Assembly: GCA_938005475.1 (NCBI GenBank) | Contig: CALLNY010000014.1 | Span: forward strand, 62,001-126,000 | Direction of reading: 5' to 3' | Length of the DNA: 64,000 nucleotides | DNA from: an uncultured Bacteroidia bacterium | GTDB lineage: Bacteria; Bacteroidota; Bacteroidia; J057; CALLMJ01 | In this document: positions 54,907 to 63,478 of the stretch, piece after piece | How the letters are laid out: each line of letters starts with the position of its first letter | Numbering within the stretch: the first letter of the stretch is position 1 | Made by a program: the position numbers and the translations under genes | Notes under the pieces: generated by a model | The model's input: the letters and a program-made list of their open reading frames with translations, nothing else | Database searches by the model: none | Told to the model about the DNA's origin: nothing

Positions 54907-57900
54907 TTATTTATAGACCACAATCTTATGATTAAAGTTTTTCTGTGGTGTTTGTAATAACAAGTGATATATCCCAAAAGATAGTTTATCGGCTCGTATT
55001 ACCCATTCATTAAGCCCCTTCTGCGCTTCTTTCGTGAGTAAAAGCACTTGCTGACCTAACTCATTATAGAGGTGAATATCTGCCAACGTCTCCGATGAAC
55101 TCATAAATCGTACTATAAACTCATCATTCTGAACTGGGTTAGGATAAATCACCACATAATCATCAGGTGCTTGTTCTAAATAAACTTCCGCTACATTAGA
55201 ATATCCAACATTTCCGTTTTCATCTAAATAACGAACTCGGAAGACATTGTTATAATTATAGAACGGTTGTTTATCTTCTGTAAAGTACACCAGATTGTTA
55301 TTGAACTCAAAGGTATCAATGCTCACCCAAGAACTACCTACCAATTTTTCCATGTAAGCGGTTCGGAAACTTCCATCGATGACCCAATTCAAATCAATGA
55401 AGGTTGATTGTGGATTATAGTTAGCGGTGAGGTAATTTTGAGTAATTGGCAAGATACAATCAGATACGTTAATTTGCTTAATCACTTGGCTTACGCAACC
55501 ATTATGATTGACTGAAAGGGTTACGAAATAAGTTCCCGAGGTTGTATAGGTGTGCGTTGGATTTTGTGCGTTAGAGGTAGGAGAAGCATCTCCAAAATCC
55601 CATGTAACATTACCCCCTAAACCAGGACTTCCTGCAAATACCTGAAATTCACCCCAGTTAGGTCCATCAGCTTCTACATCTAACTCTAATTTCCAGCGGT
55701 TAGCAAAGATACCATTAGTTTCAGGGAAGAAGCCCGTATCAAAGTTACCCGTTGAAGGATAGGATGGGAACCATACTTTTGCTAATACCCATGGACCTCC
55801 CGTAGAGTAGTACAATCTTAACATTTTAGGTGATTGTGCAGCATAAGATGTGTTGTTATAGTTCCAGTAATAGAAACGGTTCACGGATTTAGGAGTTACA
55901 TAATGCCATTGCACCCATTGAGTAGAAGGACCCGAAGCATTACCGGACCAAGCCGTATATCCCTGATGTACATTATCATACAAATGAGAGAAATTGAGGT
56001 AATCCGCAGAAGAGAAACTAATTCTTCCAGGAGATGGTGGTAAACCCGTAGTGCCTAATTGGAAGATATCATGACCACTAGGACCTATGCTCGGTACAGA
56101 ATTCGTAGTTACTATGGTTTGGTTGTAGAATTGAATAGATTGGTTCACACAAGTAACAACGGTGTTATTGAAATCAGGCGTTAAAGTAGGCATTACTTGA
56201 GCGATAATAGGATTACGACCACCTGCACACATATTTTGAACATAATAAATTTTGGTTTCAGTGAGAGCAGGAGTAGTATAGGTACTAGTAGCGGTAGCTA
56301 CCGGAGTACCTCCCGTAGGAACTGTGTACCAATTTGTAGGTTGAGCGGTAGTAAGCGTTGCGGAAGAACCTTTACAAACCGTAAACAACGATTGATTAGG
56401 AATATAAGGGCTCCAGTATCCCATATCATGCCCATCATAAGGTCCACCCGCAAAAATATTACTTACACAATTTGCAAAACTTGCAACAGAACCATGCCCA
56501 TCATGAGGTCCACCCGCAAATATCTGTATAGTACAACCCACGTAGGTTACAGAACTATGACCATCATAAGGTCCACCCGCATAAATATTCGTTATACAAT
56601 TCGAATACTGCGAAACTGAACCATGACCATCATAAGGACCGCCCGCATAAATATTCGTTACACAATTTGATGTATACAATAAAGAACCATGACCATCATA
56701 GGGACCACCCGCAAAGATGTTTGTGTCAGGTGGTGTACAACCTTGAACATAAGCAGAACCATGACCATCATAGGGTCCCCCTGACCACATGGTCGTTGTT
56801 ATACAAAAAGCATATTCAGCAACAGAACCATGACCATCATAAGGACCACCCACAAAGATGGCGGGTTCACAATTCGCACTTAATAATACCGAACCATGAC
56901 CATCATAAGGACCACCAGCAAAAATAAAACCTGCGCAATTGAGTAGTTGTGCAACCATTCCGTGCCCGTCATAATATCCTCCTGCATAGATGTTCTGCTC
57001 ACAATTCGCAAATACTGTTGCGGAGCTATGCCCATCATAAGGACCGCCACCATAAATTTGTTCCAACTGAACATTAATCTCAAAACAATAAGTAGAATCA
57101 CAACCCCAGTTGTTTATAGTTAAGCAGATTTTTTTGATACCCGGCGTTAACCAAGTAACAGTTGGAGGATTAGGACCCGAAAATTGAGAAGGAGTAGCAG
57201 AACAATAACCACCATCTGCACAAAAATCCCAAAAATAAATAGCACCCGGAATTACATCCGTAGAAGTATTAGTAAAAGTTATGGGTGCTCCTGCATAATA
57301 AGGACCAGGGCTTATCGTAAAGGAAGGTTTAGGATAAGGTTTAATATATATTAATTGTTGAATGGTATCACAAAGCGTACCATTACAAACTATTTGAGTA
57401 ACAATATATTGCCCTGTATCGGGATAAACATGAATAGGTGCAAAAGCAGTAGACTGCGATGCGTCACCAAAATCCCACAAATACGTAATGCTTGAGCCCG
57501 TGGTAGCTAAATTCGTGAAATAAGTAGGTTCACCGAAACAATCCCCATTAAAAGAAAAATTCGCACGAGGCCTGTTTGGGTCTATGGGGTTACAAGAAGT
57601 ATCAGTAACAGGAGTAGCCGTAACGTTTAACCTCACATAACCCGTAGCCACTTCCGGCATCACAACTTGTATCCAAAAATCTCCTGGTAATCGACATTTT
57701 AAGTTCAAAATAATAAACACTCCTTCTGCAACGCAGTTATCAAAGGTCATTGCATTACAATCCCCATAAGCTATACGGTATTGGATTTGGTCTGCGGTTA
57801 CAGAAGTACTATCCTTCACCTCAATATCCAGGTTATATTTAACGGTATCGGTTAAACTAATTTTGAACCATTGAGATTTTCTACCAATTGGACCTTGCAA

Positions 57901-60900
57901 ACAACCCATATTGGTGCCATCTTCGCCCGGTGCCTCTCCAATCGTATGGCAATTTATCCAAGATAGAGCAGTATAATTGCCCGCGGCATTAATATTAAAT
58001 TCTTGTGGGTCACTACACAAATCTCCCTTAATAGGAATAAACCAAATTCTAGGAATTACCGTTTCGGTGGGAAAATCACAGCCCGTAAACATTAAATAAT
58101 AAGTACCTGGATAAACGCATGCCGCTCCCCAGTGATAATAATTAGAAGGATTGAAATTAGGGTTTCCATTCACATAAATGGTCTGTGTAGGAACAATTCC
58201 TAATCCTGAGTTCGTAGAATCACCGGGAATATATTCACGCAATAATTTTACTGCATTGCTATTGTATGTAGTGATATTAGGTCCGGGGCGCGTATAGTTA
58301 ATAAGGATTCGTCCTGTTTTGCCTACAGTAAATTTATACCATATCGTTTTCCCACAATGGGCTTGATCAGTTGGGTCAGCGGTAGCACAGTTTAAATTTC
58401 CAAGATAACCTGTTAAAGTGGTATCATTGTTAATAGTTAAGGGCGTGTAAGGCGGTTGATATTCAGAAGTGGGATTGCCGTTAATCACATTGGCTTCGGA
58501 GTAGTGGTCAAACAAAACATAAGCAGGAGGCGCAGGCTCAAACCGTATTCCTACTCGAATTTGAGTATTAGGTTCATTGTACGAATTATTATTAACCACA
58601 ATATAGTACCTTCGCGTAACTATACCTGCACAAGGCTCTAAATACCAACTCACCGTTTGATAATTGCCACACCCGGATGAGCTGGTCGTAACATATTGCA
58701 AGGGAGGAGATAAGGAGTCATTGGGCGGTATAGTAGTATTCGGAGAATAATACACCGTAAATGGGGATTGACTGCCTTTTCCGTTCGTTAAATTATAAAC
58801 GGATACATAAACAATACCTGGTCCTGTTACAGTGAACGTGTACCATAAATTTCTTCTGGGGTTAGTAGGACTGGGTAAAGCATTGGGAGGGGGATTTTGA
58901 CCGATTGGGCAGTTATTGCTGGGGTCTGAAGCTAAAGCAGTAGTAGTACAAAAAAAGAAGTCTTCACTAGGTTGCCTTCCAAAAGGACCTAATGGGTCAC
59001 TGATTTTGCCAAAATACTGTACGTTATCATTAGGAATATTACCAAAATCATAGGCTTGCGCCGCATGGTCAAATTTGGATACTCCTACCGAATCTACATA
59101 CAAAGTAGGCGTAAAACTTACTCCAATATGCGAGTTATTAGCAAAAGTTACCAAGGTATAAGTTCCTGGAGGAAGGCTACATAACCGCATTTGGTCTGTA
59201 ATACAAGCATGATAAACAGGTGCAGAAGGGTTTATGGATAAATCTCCATCATATAAACGGGTTTGAGTACCACTTGGGAAACCATAAATATAAACGTAAG
59301 AGGTTTTAGTAATGGTAAATTTACGCCAAGAGGCACGATTATAGCTAGGTAAACAAGGCGTAACTTCTACGGGGCCTGCCGCACAATCAAAAAAGTCCGT
59401 ACCTAAACTGTAGGTCATCCAATTTTTAGGGATTGCCGCTGTATGGGGTCCATTTGGATACCAATCCGTAGTTCCTGCATTATAGGCTGTTGCAATCGTT
59501 CTAAACTGCTGTGCATTCGGATTAATTGAAATAGAAATATTGACTTGGTCTCCAATAACATCTCCTCTTCCTGAAGTATATTCAGGACTGGTAAAAGTTT
59601 TGCCATGCCCATAAGTAACCACTGTATACCAACCGGGCGGCACACATTCCGTAAATCCTCCCCCAAAACAATCTTTGTATAATCCTGTAAGTGAATTAGT
59701 AGAAATTCTACCACTAAAAATTCTGTGACTAATCCCTCCTGCACAAGTTACATGGCAGTTATGCGAAGAATTAAAAGTTAGAAGACTGGGTTGAGAAACA
59801 TAAAATTCGCGATAGATTTGTTTGGTGGCTCCATTACAGGGGGCATATCCCAGGATAGTCAAAGGATTATCATCACAAGTAAAACGTGTGGGTGTTCCGG
59901 TTATACTCAAAGGAGAAGGAATGGTTACAGCACCCATATTTTCTGCTGTAGCAGGAGTATTAAATAACGTTGGAGGTATAACATCAAATTTGAACCAGGG
60001 TCTATCGCTTCCCCCAACATCCCCTGAATCTGCAAACGAAACTAAAGTATAAATTCCCGGTGTTACGCATACCTTGAACGGATAGTTTTGGCAACCTACT
60101 TGGTCTACTAAACCTTGTATTTTTCCACCTACAATGGGAAGAGCAGAAGCATCTCCTTTATAAAGCCGATAACTAAAACGCCACCAGTTACCACCGCCTA
60201 CGGATAAAATACCATTTTGGTTGATAACCACTTTTCTATAGATGGCTCTCACATTGTGGGAACCACAAACATCTCCGTCTGGTAATACCGTGTTCTGACA
60301 ATCAATGGTATCGCTTGTAGAATAAATCGTAGGACCATTGGGCAAAGGATTTCCACTATTTACGTTATCAATTTCAGAAGATGTATGTAAACCAAAAGCT
60401 TGTGAAAAAGAAAATAATACATTGATATGCAAGGTATGATAGCGTCCAAGATTAGAGGCCCAGGATTGATGGCTATTCGTAGAATCCATAATTCCGAGAA
60501 CTTGAATAGTATAATCGCCTGGGGGCATACACCGAAAGGTAGCAGAACCCACAAACTGATTGTAAAAAGTTAAGCCGCTGCAACCTACATTGTTAATATT
60601 GCCTTGATAAATTCTTACTGCCAAACTAGGTTGGTACCAAGCAGTAAAACTAAATTGGACATCGGTTTGCGTTCCCAAAGTAAAAGTTTTCCATGAAGCA
60701 AGTTCGTATTTATTTCCGCCAATATTGAAAAAACCAGATGCAGGCAAAGCAGGAGGGCAAGCAGGCGTATTGTATAAAGATAACCTACCTTGACAAGTCA
60801 AATAATCTCCTATGCTTGTAGTACCATAATTCAGAGTTCCTAAGTTATGAGAGGCTATTACCGGATTAGGATTATAGGAAACCTCTGGACCTCCTCCAAC

Positions 60901-61893
60901 TTCATACATTCTTACTTGTATTTGCGCTGCATAATTGTCCGGAATAAATAGTTGAATACTATAAGTGGTATTAGGTTCTAATAAACAAGGTGAAAAATCC
61001 GCTCCATAAGACCATGCGTTCGTTTGTGAAAGCGTTTTACAGGACACTACCTCCGTTAAGTTACTACCGCCTTCAGGGATACCATCGGGAATAGAATCTT
61101 GAATACAGTTACCTTTATAAAGTCTATAGCCCCATTGCCGTGGTATGCTGTGTAAACTACCCAGCCAAGGTGTTTCTTGAATTTCAAAACGATAAAAATC
61201 TACGCTTGCGTCGGTAGTAAAAATGTGCCATGCAGACTTGTTATAATTGGTATTAGGGCAAGGTGTTTCAATTTGTGTGATACTTTGGCAACCTACCTCA
61301 TAAGTATAATTGATGGGTCCCCCAGAGATTACTCCAAAATTGTGAGGCTGTGCAGAATGGTCATGAAGAACTTCATCGGCACTCGGTGGAGCAGTTTCTA
61401 ACTTAATAAAAATAGGAGAATTTGCCGCTAAGGTACCTGTAACCTGAAGTAAGTAATCCCCTTTTCTCAGACATTTATGGGTATAACCTTCTATATTTAG
61501 AATGGGAGGATCAACTACTTGTGCGGATCCGGGGAAACAGGTATTGGTTCGGAACAATGTCCAACCTGCCGCTGTTGCGGGCATAGGAAATGGAGCAACA
61601 CCCGGCTGCATCAATGTAATAATCACGGTTCGCGTGGTAGGTATAGAAAATTTAAACCAAACCGATTTTTGATTCGCTACTTGCAATGGGTGAATATATT
61701 CACCAAACTGCAGTGTAGCTCCATTCAAACTTACTGTATCCGAGTAAAACGTCCCAAAATTCCAACCACCGCCTGATATATTTATCGTAGATGCATTCGC
61801 ACAATGATCATTCGCAGGCTGTGCATTTAATCTATCAGGACGCCACCAAGATAATATAAGCAATAATATAATGTTAAATTTATATTTCAGCAT
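54907..61893 (-). CDS. Giant multi-domain T9SS surface protein
   Basis: The 2328-residue product starts with a signal peptide (LKYKFNIILLLILSWW). From about residue 20 to 1440 it has about nine repeated beta modules of the pre-peptidase (PPC) type, each around 150 residues. Each ends in a C-x3-G-x-Y block such as RCMPPGDYTIQVLG, VCVTPGIYTLVSF or LCSLPPGTYTLVTF. Two PKD-like domains follow (YLWDFGDASQSTAFAPIHVY). Ten tandem YDGHGS repeats then lie at about 1610-1826, followed by a CHU_C/Ig-like module (FTVCKGSSATLTTAQPTNWY), a discoidin-like segment and another PKD (TWDFGDASPTSNAQNPTHTY). A T9SS type A sorting domain ends it (VVIYPNPVQNDEFIVRFM). Export, calcium binding or adhesion fit; there is no enzymatic motif. 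Confidence 0.9.
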   Translation of the reverse strand: MLKYKFNIILLLILSWWRPDRLNAQPANDHCANASTINISGGGWNFGTFYSDTVSLNGATLQFGEYIHPLQVANQKSVWFKFSIPTTRTVIITLMQPGVAPFPMPATAAGWTLFRTNTCFPGSAQVVDPPILNIEGYTHKCLRKGDYLLQVTGTLAANSPIFIKLETAPPSADEVLHDHSAQPHNFGVISGGPINYTYEVGCQSITQIETPCPNTNYNKSAWHIFTTDASVDFYRFEIQETPWLGSLHSIPRQWGYRLYKGNCIQDSIPDGIPEGGSNLTEVVSCKTLSQTNAWSYGADFSPCLLEPNTTYSIQLFIPDNYAAQIQVRMYEVGGGPEVSYNPNPVIASHNLGTLNYGTTSIGDYLTCQGRLSLYNTPACPPALPASGFFNIGGNKYELASWKTFTLGTQTDVQFSFTAWYQPSLAVRIYQGNINNVGCSGLTFYNQFVGSATFRCMPPGDYTIQVLGIMDSTNSHQSWASNLGRYHTLHINVLFSFSQAFGLHTSSEIDNVNSGNPLPNGPTIYSTSDTIDCQNTVLPDGDVCGSHNVRAIYRKVVINQNGILSVGGGNWWRFSYRLYKGDASALPIVGGKIQGLVDQVGCQNYPFKVCVTPGIYTLVSFADSGDVGGSDRPWFKFDVIPPTLFNTPATAENMGAVTIPSPLSITGTPTRFTCDDNPLTILGYAPCNGATKQIYREFYVSQPSLLTFNSSHNCHVTCAGGISHRIFSGRISTNSLTGLYKDCFGGGFTECVPPGWYTVVTYGHGKTFTSPEYTSGRGDVIGDQVNISISINPNAQQFRTIATAYNAGTTDWYPNGPHTAAIPKNWMTYSLGTDFFDCAAGPVEVTPCLPSYNRASWRKFTITKTSYVYIYGFPSGTQTRLYDGDLSINPSAPVYHACITDQMRLCSLPPGTYTLVTFANNSHIGVSFTPTLYVDSVGVSKFDHAAQAYDFGNIPNDNVQYFGKISDPLGPFGRQPSEDFFFCTTTALASDPSNNCPIGQNPPPNALPSPTNPRRNLWYTFTVTGPGIVYVSVYNLTNGKGSQSPFTVYYSPNTTIPPNDSLSPPLQYVTTSSSGCGNYQTVSWYLEPCAGIVTRRYYIVVNNNSYNEPNTQIRVGIRFEPAPPAYVLFDHYSEANVINGNPTSEYQPPYTPLTINNDTTLTGYLGNLNCATADPTDQAHCGKTIWYKFTVGKTGRILINYTRPGPNITTYNSNAVKLLREYIPGDSTNSGLGIVPTQTIYVNGNPNFNPSNYYHWGAACVYPGTYYLMFTGCDFPTETVIPRIWFIPIKGDLCSDPQEFNINAAGNYTALSWINCHTIGEAPGEDGTNMGCLQGPIGRKSQWFKISLTDTVKYNLDIEVKDSTSVTADQIQYRIAYGDCNAMTFDNCVAEGVFIILNLKCRLPGDFWIQVVMPEVATGYVRLNVTATPVTDTSCNPIDPNRPRANFSFNGDCFGEPTYFTNLATTGSSITYLWDFGDASQSTAFAPIHVYPDTGQYIVTQIVCNGTLCDTIQQLIYIKPYPKPSFTISPGPYYAGAPITFTNTSTDVIPGAIYFWDFCADGGYCSATPSQFSGPNPPTVTWLTPGIKKICLTINNWGCDSTYCFEINVQLEQIYGGGPYDGHSSATVFANCEQNIYAGGYYDGHGMVAQLLNCAGFIFAGGPYDGHGSVLLSANCEPAIFVGGPYDGHGSVAEYAFCITTTMWSGGPYDGHGSAYVQGCTPPDTNIFAGGPYDGHGSLLYTSNCVTNIYAGGPYDGHGSVSQYSNCITNIYAGGPYDGHSSVTYVGCTIQIFAGGPHDGHGSVASFANCVSNIFAGGPYDGHDMGYWSPYIPNQSLFTVCKGSSATLTTAQPTNWYTVPTGGTPVATATSTYTTPALTETKIYYVQNMCAGGRNPIIAQVMPTLTPDFNNTVVTCVNQSIQFYNQTIVTTNSVPSIGPSGHDIFQLGTTGLPPSPGRISFSSADYLNFSHLYDNVHQGYTAWSGNASGPSTQWVQWHYVTPKSVNRFYYWNYNNTSYAAQSPKMLRLYYSTGGPWVLAKVWFPSYPSTGNFDTGFFPETNGIFANRWKLELDVEADGPNWGEFQVFAGSPGLGGNVTWDFGDASPTSNAQNPTHTYTTSGTYFVTLSVNHNGCVSQVIKQINVSDCILPITQNYLTANYNPQSTFIDLNWVIDGSFRTAYMEKLVGSSWVSIDTFEFNNNLVYFTEDKQPFYNYNNVFRVRYLDENGNVGYSNVAEVYLEQAPDDYVVIYPNPVQNDEFIVRFMSSSETLADIHLYNELGQQVLLLTKEAQKGLNEWVIRADKLSFGIYHLLLQTPQKNFNHKIVVYK
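56415..57062 (-). repeat. Ten tandem ~66-base repeats encoding GGPYDGHGS units
   Basis: Inside the giant gene about ten copies of a 20-25-residue unit of the form I-(Y/F)-A-G-G-P-Y-D-G-H-G-S with one cysteine per unit follow each other. The spacing is about 66-75 bases. At DNA level a conserved core (ATGACCATCATAAGG on the plus strand) recurs with small changes. Similar GGxxDG motifs occur in other T9SS proteins of the phylum, so this is an array of a known kind but here with His in the motif. Confidence 0.9.
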
Positions 61894-61951
61894 AATAATT
61901 TTTAAAATGAATATTTAATTCATACGACTAAAAATTTTTTATTTTTTAAAA

Positions 61952-61991
61952 AAGCCGTTTGTAATTTTTATATTATAATAACAAACGGCTT
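61952..61991 (-). terminator. Terminator after the FGE-fold gene
   Basis: An 11-bp stem (AAGCCGTTTGT at 61952-61962, ACAAACGGCTT at 61981-61991) with an 18-base loop is followed on the minus strand by a T run (CTTTTTTAAA). It lies 29 bases after the stop of the gene at 62021 and 58 bases before the start of the giant gene. Confidence 0.85.
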
Positions 61992-62020: not shown

Positions 62021-63478
62021 TTATCGAGCTCCTCTTCCGCCATAGTATCGAGTTCTTGCAGTATTATCGCCATAATAACAATTGTAGTGCCCATCATAAC
62101 GGTCATTAAGGCGACATCTATCCGAACCAGAGTACCAACTACCTCCTACTGTCATTATTCTATTATTATTACCTGAAATAGTGGCTGCTGGCCATCCTGT
62201 TACATCATGATCTCCCGCTGCGCTTATGTCTCCATCTCCCCAAACTCTTTGAAATTCTGCTGATCCATTATTACTACACGCTACTACTAACTCATCTAAA
62301 TTTCCCGTCAACTCCATATTTCCATAATAACCAGCACCCGCCGTGATACGATTCGCAGTAGGTAAAGCAAAAATACCTACTCTGTAAGGACCTTGCCCAC
62401 CATCTCCACCTGTTATGGTGGCAGTGGTTCCATAGTAGTTACAATTGGAATCAGTAGTATTACCAATCTCGGTACCATTTTCTGGGGTTGTAATGGAGTT
62501 TTCTTCAATAAGAGTGGTTGTACCCCAAGCATATTCACCAGCAATCACTGGTCCTTCACCTCTACAAGCTTTAACATATTCTAATTCGGACATAGGTCTT
62601 AAAGCCGCCCAGTCTAGATAAGCAGACAAATCTCTCCAACTAAGATAATTTTGTGCTCGGTCGGGTCTATCCGTTTGATAAATGTTTGGAGGCGTTCCTG
62701 AATTATTGGTTCTATTTCTATAATTGTTAAAGTTTCCAAGATAACGATTGGATTGAGCAGTGGAAGGAATAGTATTTAAGAAATCTGCGTATTGTCCTTG
62801 CGTGATTTCATACTTCATTAGATAAAAAGGAGCATAGCCTTTTGGATAGGTAGCGGGCAAGTTTAAGTTCACAAAAGTATGGTTCCATGTACCAGTAGCC
62901 ATATAATTAGTTGTTTGTACTGTAACAGCGGCTTCTGAAGTAATTTGTTGTGTAGCAAATCCCCAGTAAACATTATTGATAAAGAAAGGACCTTGAGGGA
63001 TAAAAACCATTTCAATACCAAATACTTTTACGTCTATATCTCCGGAGGTAGGTAGATTATTGATTTTTAGGGTAATAGTATGAGGACCGGCATTGGGATA
63101 AATTCCTACAGCGGTTCTACGAAGCATAACACCTGTATTGTTAGGTGCGGCATCAATCCCTACGGCAGAGCCATCGGAAAGAGTGGGTTCCAGTGCTGAA
63201 CTGAAATTGTGGTCAGAGAGGGTTACAGAAACTAATCCGTGTGTCCAAGGAGTGGTAGGTGATGCTCCACAGGTTCTAAATTTCACGAACACCCAAGCCG
63301 CATCCCAGTTAAAAGGTACTGTTGTTACTCTCCAACTATTGTTCCATTTCAAATCAAACGTTACCGTTTGTGCTGCCTGATTTACTGATAAATTGCTAAC
63401 TGTTAGATTGTTAGCGTTCACATTGTGGCTCATAAGCCAACAAGCAAGAATGATTACATTAAAACCAAAGTTTTTCAT
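62021..63478 (-). CDS. Exported SUMF1/FGE-fold protein with variable-region-like C-terminus
   Basis: The 485-residue product has a signal peptide (FNVIILACWLMSHNVNA) and an N-terminal beta-rich domain of about 150 residues. A formylglycine-generating-enzyme/SUMF1 fold follows from about residue 165 (EMVFIPQGPFFINNVYWG, YLMKYEITQGQYADFL, MSELEYVKACRGEG, NMELTGNLDELVV). This fold is used for FGE enzymes, but also as a display scaffold with a C-type-lectin core. The last 40 residues run from GGSWYSGSD to YYGGRGAR, and their codons are nearly all NNY (Tyr, Asp, Asn, Ser, Cys, His, Gly). FGE catalytic cysteines are not apparent. There is no T9SS domain. It has a full promoter and a terminator. Confidence 0.85.
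   Translation of the reverse strand: MKNFGFNVIILACWLMSHNVNANNLTVSNLSVNQAAQTVTFDLKWNNSWRVTTVPFNWDAAWVFVKFRTCGASPTTPWTHGLVSVTLSDHNFSSALEPTLSDGSAVGIDAAPNNTGVMLRRTAVGIYPNAGPHTITLKINNLPTSGDIDVKVFGIEMVFIPQGPFFINNVYWGFATQQITSEAAVTVQTTNYMATGTWNHTFVNLNLPATYPKGYAPFYLMKYEITQGQYADFLNTIPSTAQSNRYLGNFNNYRNRTNNSGTPPNIYQTDRPDRAQNYLSWRDLSAYLDWAALRPMSELEYVKACRGEGPVIAGEYAWGTTTLIEENSITTPENGTEIGNTTDSNCNYYGTTATITGGDGGQGPYRVGIFALPTANRITAGAGYYGNMELTGNLDELVVACSNNGSAEFQRVWGDGDISAAGDHDVTGWPAATISGNNNRIMTVGGSWYSGSDRCRLNDRYDGHYNCYYGDNTARTRYYGGRGAR

Follow-up and report, generated by a model that had tools for sequence, protein, structure and literature searches.

Does the C-terminus of an exported SUMF1-fold protein, encoded in a 64-kb stretch of DNA from an uncultured Bacteroidia bacterium (64,000 nucleotides, here called the window), represent the variable region of a target of a diversity-generating retroelement (DGR)? 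This was proposed in a preliminary description of the window made from the sequence. The tail is, as judged by sequence comparison, homologous to tails rewritten by DGRs in Omnitrophota. The window gene itself is very probably a non-DGR member of an exported FGE-like (CLec-fold) family, in which the tail face varies by ordinary means and the same face is rewritten by DGRs in an Omnitrophota group.

The gene and all its parts lie on the minus strand. The open reading frame (62021..63478, with the stop codon at 62021-62023) encodes 485 residues, and the start of the protein resembles a signal peptide. A beta-rich N-terminal domain follows (residues ~26-160, 62999..63403), which is delimited by the family alignment, the AlphaFold2 model, and a paralogue fragment, and which the alignment shows to be common to the whole protein family. 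The rest of the protein is an FGE/SUMF1-like domain (residues ~196-485, 62024..62893). Pfam FGE-sulfatase (PF03781) matches residues 196-330 with 40.6 bits (E=3e-10), and the family alignment extends the domain to the C-terminus. The AlphaFold2 model has a pLDDT of 84, and its best PDB neighbours in Foldseek are formylglycine-generating enzymes. These features agree with the exported SUMF1-fold protein first described, and the tail running from GGSW to GGRGAR and a stop was also read correctly. The C-terminus is GGSWYSGSDRCRLNDRYDGHYNCYYGDNTARTRYYGGRGAR, and the tail as given in full is VGGSWYSGSDRCRLNDRYDGHYNCYYGDNTARTRYYGGRGAR, with the motif GGSW..CRLNDR..GGRGAR. By sequence comparison, the C-terminal segment (residues 445-485, 62024..62146) is homologous to the Omnitrophota DGR variable region. 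The protein combines the CLec/FGE fold with this homologous segment, and fold and homology together suggest a binding-site role for it.

The last 40 codons had been described as nearly all of NNY type. The actual count is 29 of 40, with only three AAY codons. It is equalled by ~55 windows of 40 codons within the same gene, by 7.6% of such windows across all long ORFs of the 64-kb window, and at 3/37 gene ends. NNY codons account for 13/17 residues aligned with DGR-mutable sites and for 16/25 other residues. Being unremarkable within gene and window, NNY enrichment was rejected as evidence for a DGR. The hairpin reported downstream is present 29 bases past the stop (61948..61991, minus strand). 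It has a perfect stem of 11 bp (AAGCCGTTTGT/ACAAACGGCTT, 61952-61962 and 61981-61991), an A/T-rich loop of 18 bases, and then a T-tract on the strand of the gene, with an RNA fold of -16.7 kcal/mol (z=-4.0). T-tailed hairpins of a similar kind occur at other window positions, e.g., 30100 and 51340. The terminator scanner missed this one because its loop limit is 8. The long A/T loop and the T-tract are terminator-like, in keeping with the earlier remark that the hairpin also looks like a terminator; the structure was rejected as a DGR hairpin and is probably an intrinsic terminator.

The genome containing the window comprises 2.63 Mb in 105 contigs and is estimated to be 100% complete; the window belongs to contig C14 (127,988 bases). 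A profile search of all contigs gave no RVT_1 match to a reverse transcriptase (RT), either in the 64-kb window or in the genome. The same search gave matches in three control genomes and, over the cut-off, in 19/60 relatives. The genuine DGR RT of the related genome G003 found G003 and G013 when used as query, and had no match in the window's genome. A generic RT sequence had no match either, and this result is not relied on. BLAST of the last 160 bases of the gene against the whole genome returned the gene itself only (next E=0.1). Templates were sought with degenerate patterns of 54 and 60 bases that let A replace the bases of the gene, with three mismatches allowed. Over both halves of the segment, these patterns matched only the window gene in the whole genome, and no template was found within the 64-kb window or over the final 13 kb of its contig. 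As a control, templates were recovered with both halves for 6/6 Omnitrophota variable regions (VRs) tried. For both G003 VRs the template was recovered with the last 60 bases, the other piece falling partly outside the VR. The window was thus rightly reported to contain no RT or template repeat, and the two elements suggested for search elsewhere, a near-copy with A at the differing positions and a DGR-type RT, are likewise missing from the 105-contig draft. With no RT, no near-copy, and no adenine-substituted template, the window gene is not a demonstrable DGR target. Because the assembly is a draft and paralogue fragments of the window protein lie at contig ends (C55:1-264, loci L010 and L117; C16:3-164, loci L012 and L118), the absence of a retroelement is strong but not absolute.

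Members of the same family are DGR targets in Omnitrophota. In genome G070, a DGR target ends in the pattern of the window family; only 84 of its residues are seen because the contig ends inside the gene. The RT of G070, used as query, matched 22/285 Omnitrophota genomes, from which 13 neighbourhoods were read. Five full-length family members are DGR targets in four of these genomes, two of them at locus L160, with one template in common, and one each at L163, L166, and L169. All are exported proteins with the N-domain and an FGE-like domain. Three further DGR targets are partial or weaker, among them L158, which is partial, and L164, a weaker, divergent family member; L123 is also a partial target. 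Repeat pairs were present at L159, L162, L165, and L168, and these were set aside, the target frame being not resolved or not convincing. No repeat pairs were found at L161, L167, and L170. The seven VRs measured have 123-129 bases (123-128 in the full-length targets) and 13-19 mismatches, every one at a template adenine. The templates read approximately RGGNWNNxxxNAR(V/T/A)SDRNNAANxNxxRNNNNGxR.

The window protein aligns with the five full-length targets at E values of 1e-56 to 3e-104. Identity is highest with the L169 target (40% over 487 columns, E=3e-104 in blastp), followed by L163 (38%), the two L160 targets (34-35%), and L166 (32%). The homology is full-length, and the architecture, the C-terminal frame, and the variable positions are shared. 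Since full-length family members in Omnitrophota are DGR targets, the resemblance of the window tail to a variable region is homology with real DGR targets. This part of the original proposal stands; the part making the window gene itself a target finds no near-copy, template, or RT behind it. The Omnitrophota targets have template and RT within a few kb, whereas the window's genome has neither. A literature search of partial coverage found no description of the family as a DGR target in Omnitrophota.

In Bacteroidia and Omnitrophota, members of the family normally end in the widespread tail GGxW..LRVSDR..GGRGxR. NCBIfam has no match for the family and PHROGs only weak ones, and two distant relatives were seen on viral contigs. 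The same-genus homologue is only 41% identical to the window protein. No RT was found in the nearest named Bacteroidia relatives, G060 and G062-G067 (KatS3mg025/026, SKYB95, SKYB116, SKW103, SKYG57, and ACE_BAC9). One more relative, G061, carries an RT; the DGR motif was not detected in it. No DGR RT was present in the flanks (up to 8 kb) of 37 named relatives. A codon-wise comparison of five relatives with the window tail showed free variation at silent positions and tails of different lengths. The lack of an RT in close relatives and the free synonymous and length variation of their tails both speak against the window gene being a target. Other Bacteroidia carry up to four tandem copies of the family, with differing tails and tail lengths.

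DGRs do occur in three relatives of the window's order (G003, G013, and G011), where they were recognised by the RT motif GxPIGNLTSQ and adenine-only template/VR pairs. Both of the G003 targets that were read belong to the ordinary FGE type and end in GFRLVLS, and the window-family HMM gave no match to the one compared. The three DGRs were rejected as a source of variation for family members in their own genomes, the G003 and G013 templates not matching the members tested there. In a further genome (G023, contig C90, L062/L114), a frame of 61 residues holds a broken DGR RT fragment with GLPIGNLTSQ and YVDD; no template/variable pair was found, and the locus looks like a decayed DGR.

Variation in the family is concentrated where DGRs act in Omnitrophota. 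Across 60 family members in which no DGR targeting was identified, a status that holds for the searched genomes and flanks only (some flanks being cut by contig ends), mean entropy is 3.03 bits in DGR-rewritable columns vs 1.58 in other columns (Mann-Whitney p=1.4e-4, a guide only because the sequences are related). The window residues at DGR-mutable columns are 447, 449-452, 454, 459, 461, 462, 465-467, 474, and 476-479. Shared surface exposure, and not binding, might account for part of this match. In the tree, one other Omnitrophota sequence clusters with the six DGR targets that were included (support 93), and the window protein falls in a separate Bacteroidia clade of 26 rows (support 96). 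With an arbitrary root and a quick tree method, the direction, gain vs loss of DGR targeting, is not proven.

Solved DGR proteins of the FGE-type fold have solvent-exposed variable residues that form a ligand-binding site (PMC6328139). The window protein resembles the DGR variable proteins TvpA, TaqVP, and Mtd (FGE-type CLec fold; PMC6328139) in fold and in its C-terminal variable segment after GGxW, its variable residues occupying the same region of the fold. Unlike them, it has no RT or template repeat, the tails of its relatives vary silently and in length, and it carries an extra N-terminal domain and a signal peptide.

Proteins of the family most likely bind ligands at or beyond the cell surface. 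The variable binding face of the window protein would be formed by its C-terminal ~40 residues, where constant elements (GGxW, the Arg in R(V/L)(S/N)DR, and GGRGxR) frame variable, mostly Tyr/Asp/Ser/Asn/Arg positions. DGRs rewrite the same face in one Omnitrophota group, and the most economical reading is that a retroelement recruited it there. As neither retroelement nor template was found in the window's genome, the tail there appears to vary by ordinary evolution; in the Bacteroidia lineage of the window, the face probably changes through ordinary point mutations, indels, and duplication of the gene. For the window protein, we infer ligand binding, surface location, and that its variability reflects binding diversity. 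The wider proposition is that one exported family diversifies a single hypervariable C-terminal face by two routes, by DGRs in the Omnitrophota group and by duplication and ordinary substitution without a retroelement in Bacteroidia; we consider the chances for and against it to be evenly balanced.

Other origins of the tail have to be weighed against this. The gene might be a fossil target, whose ancestor had a retroelement that the window's lineage lost, and its frame and variable positions are the same as those of the DGR-targeted relatives. We regard this as unlikely: no remnant RT or template was found, the DGR targets sampled cluster with a single Omnitrophota sequence and away from the Bacteroidia clade of the window, and a single gain in Omnitrophota is simpler, with the reservation on root and tree method given above. 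That the gene is an active target, with RT and template acting in trans from an assembly gap, is very unlikely. For it speak the DGR targeting of full-length relatives, the division of the assembly into 105 contigs, and the position of two paralogue fragments (C16 and C55) at contig ends; against it, neither RT nor near-copy nor template turned up in a genome estimated as 100% complete, RTs are likewise missing from close relatives, and the DGR loci read keep the template within a few kb of the VR, where the window contig has none on either side of the gene.

A catalytic role for the C-terminus, in a true formylglycine-generating or related copper/iron enzyme, is hardly credible. The PF03781 match and the structural neighbours speak for it, since the domain fold is shared. 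Formylglycine-generating enzymes have two active-site cysteines after GGSY. This pair is in line with PMC6328139, and the window protein does not keep it: a single Cys (C456) closely follows GGSW, in a column that is mostly Leu in the family, which makes such catalysis unlikely. The segment is also highly variable and not a fixed active site, and two ordinary FGE-domain proteins in the same genome (C12 and C20) have far better Pfam scores (164-174 bits).

If one family is diversified by both routes, the effect of DGRs on a homologous binding site could be compared directly with that of ordinary diversification. The case shows that a C-terminus resembling a VR cannot be taken as a sign of DGR activity, since homologues vary at the same positions with no retroelement detectable. 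Having DGR-targeted clades as well as clades apparently free of targeting, the family may be useful for understanding how DGRs gain targets and what a retroelement adds to ordinary diversification.

Some further observations concern the paralogues and the neighbourhood. The C55 fragment ends early, at WAALRPFV, and adjoins an opposite-strand gene that by eye resembles the small subunit of carbamoyl-phosphate synthase. Contig C65 (L011, 973-1632 and 1445-3013) contains a copy of the N-domain, an apparent frame change, and then a different adhesin-like protein, which suggests either that the N-domain is a module used in several contexts or that the gene is broken. Within the window, a protein of 2328 residues (54907-61893, minus strand) has PKD and Ig-like domains, a type IX secretion tail, and a run of tandem GGPYDGHGS motifs, then Cys.
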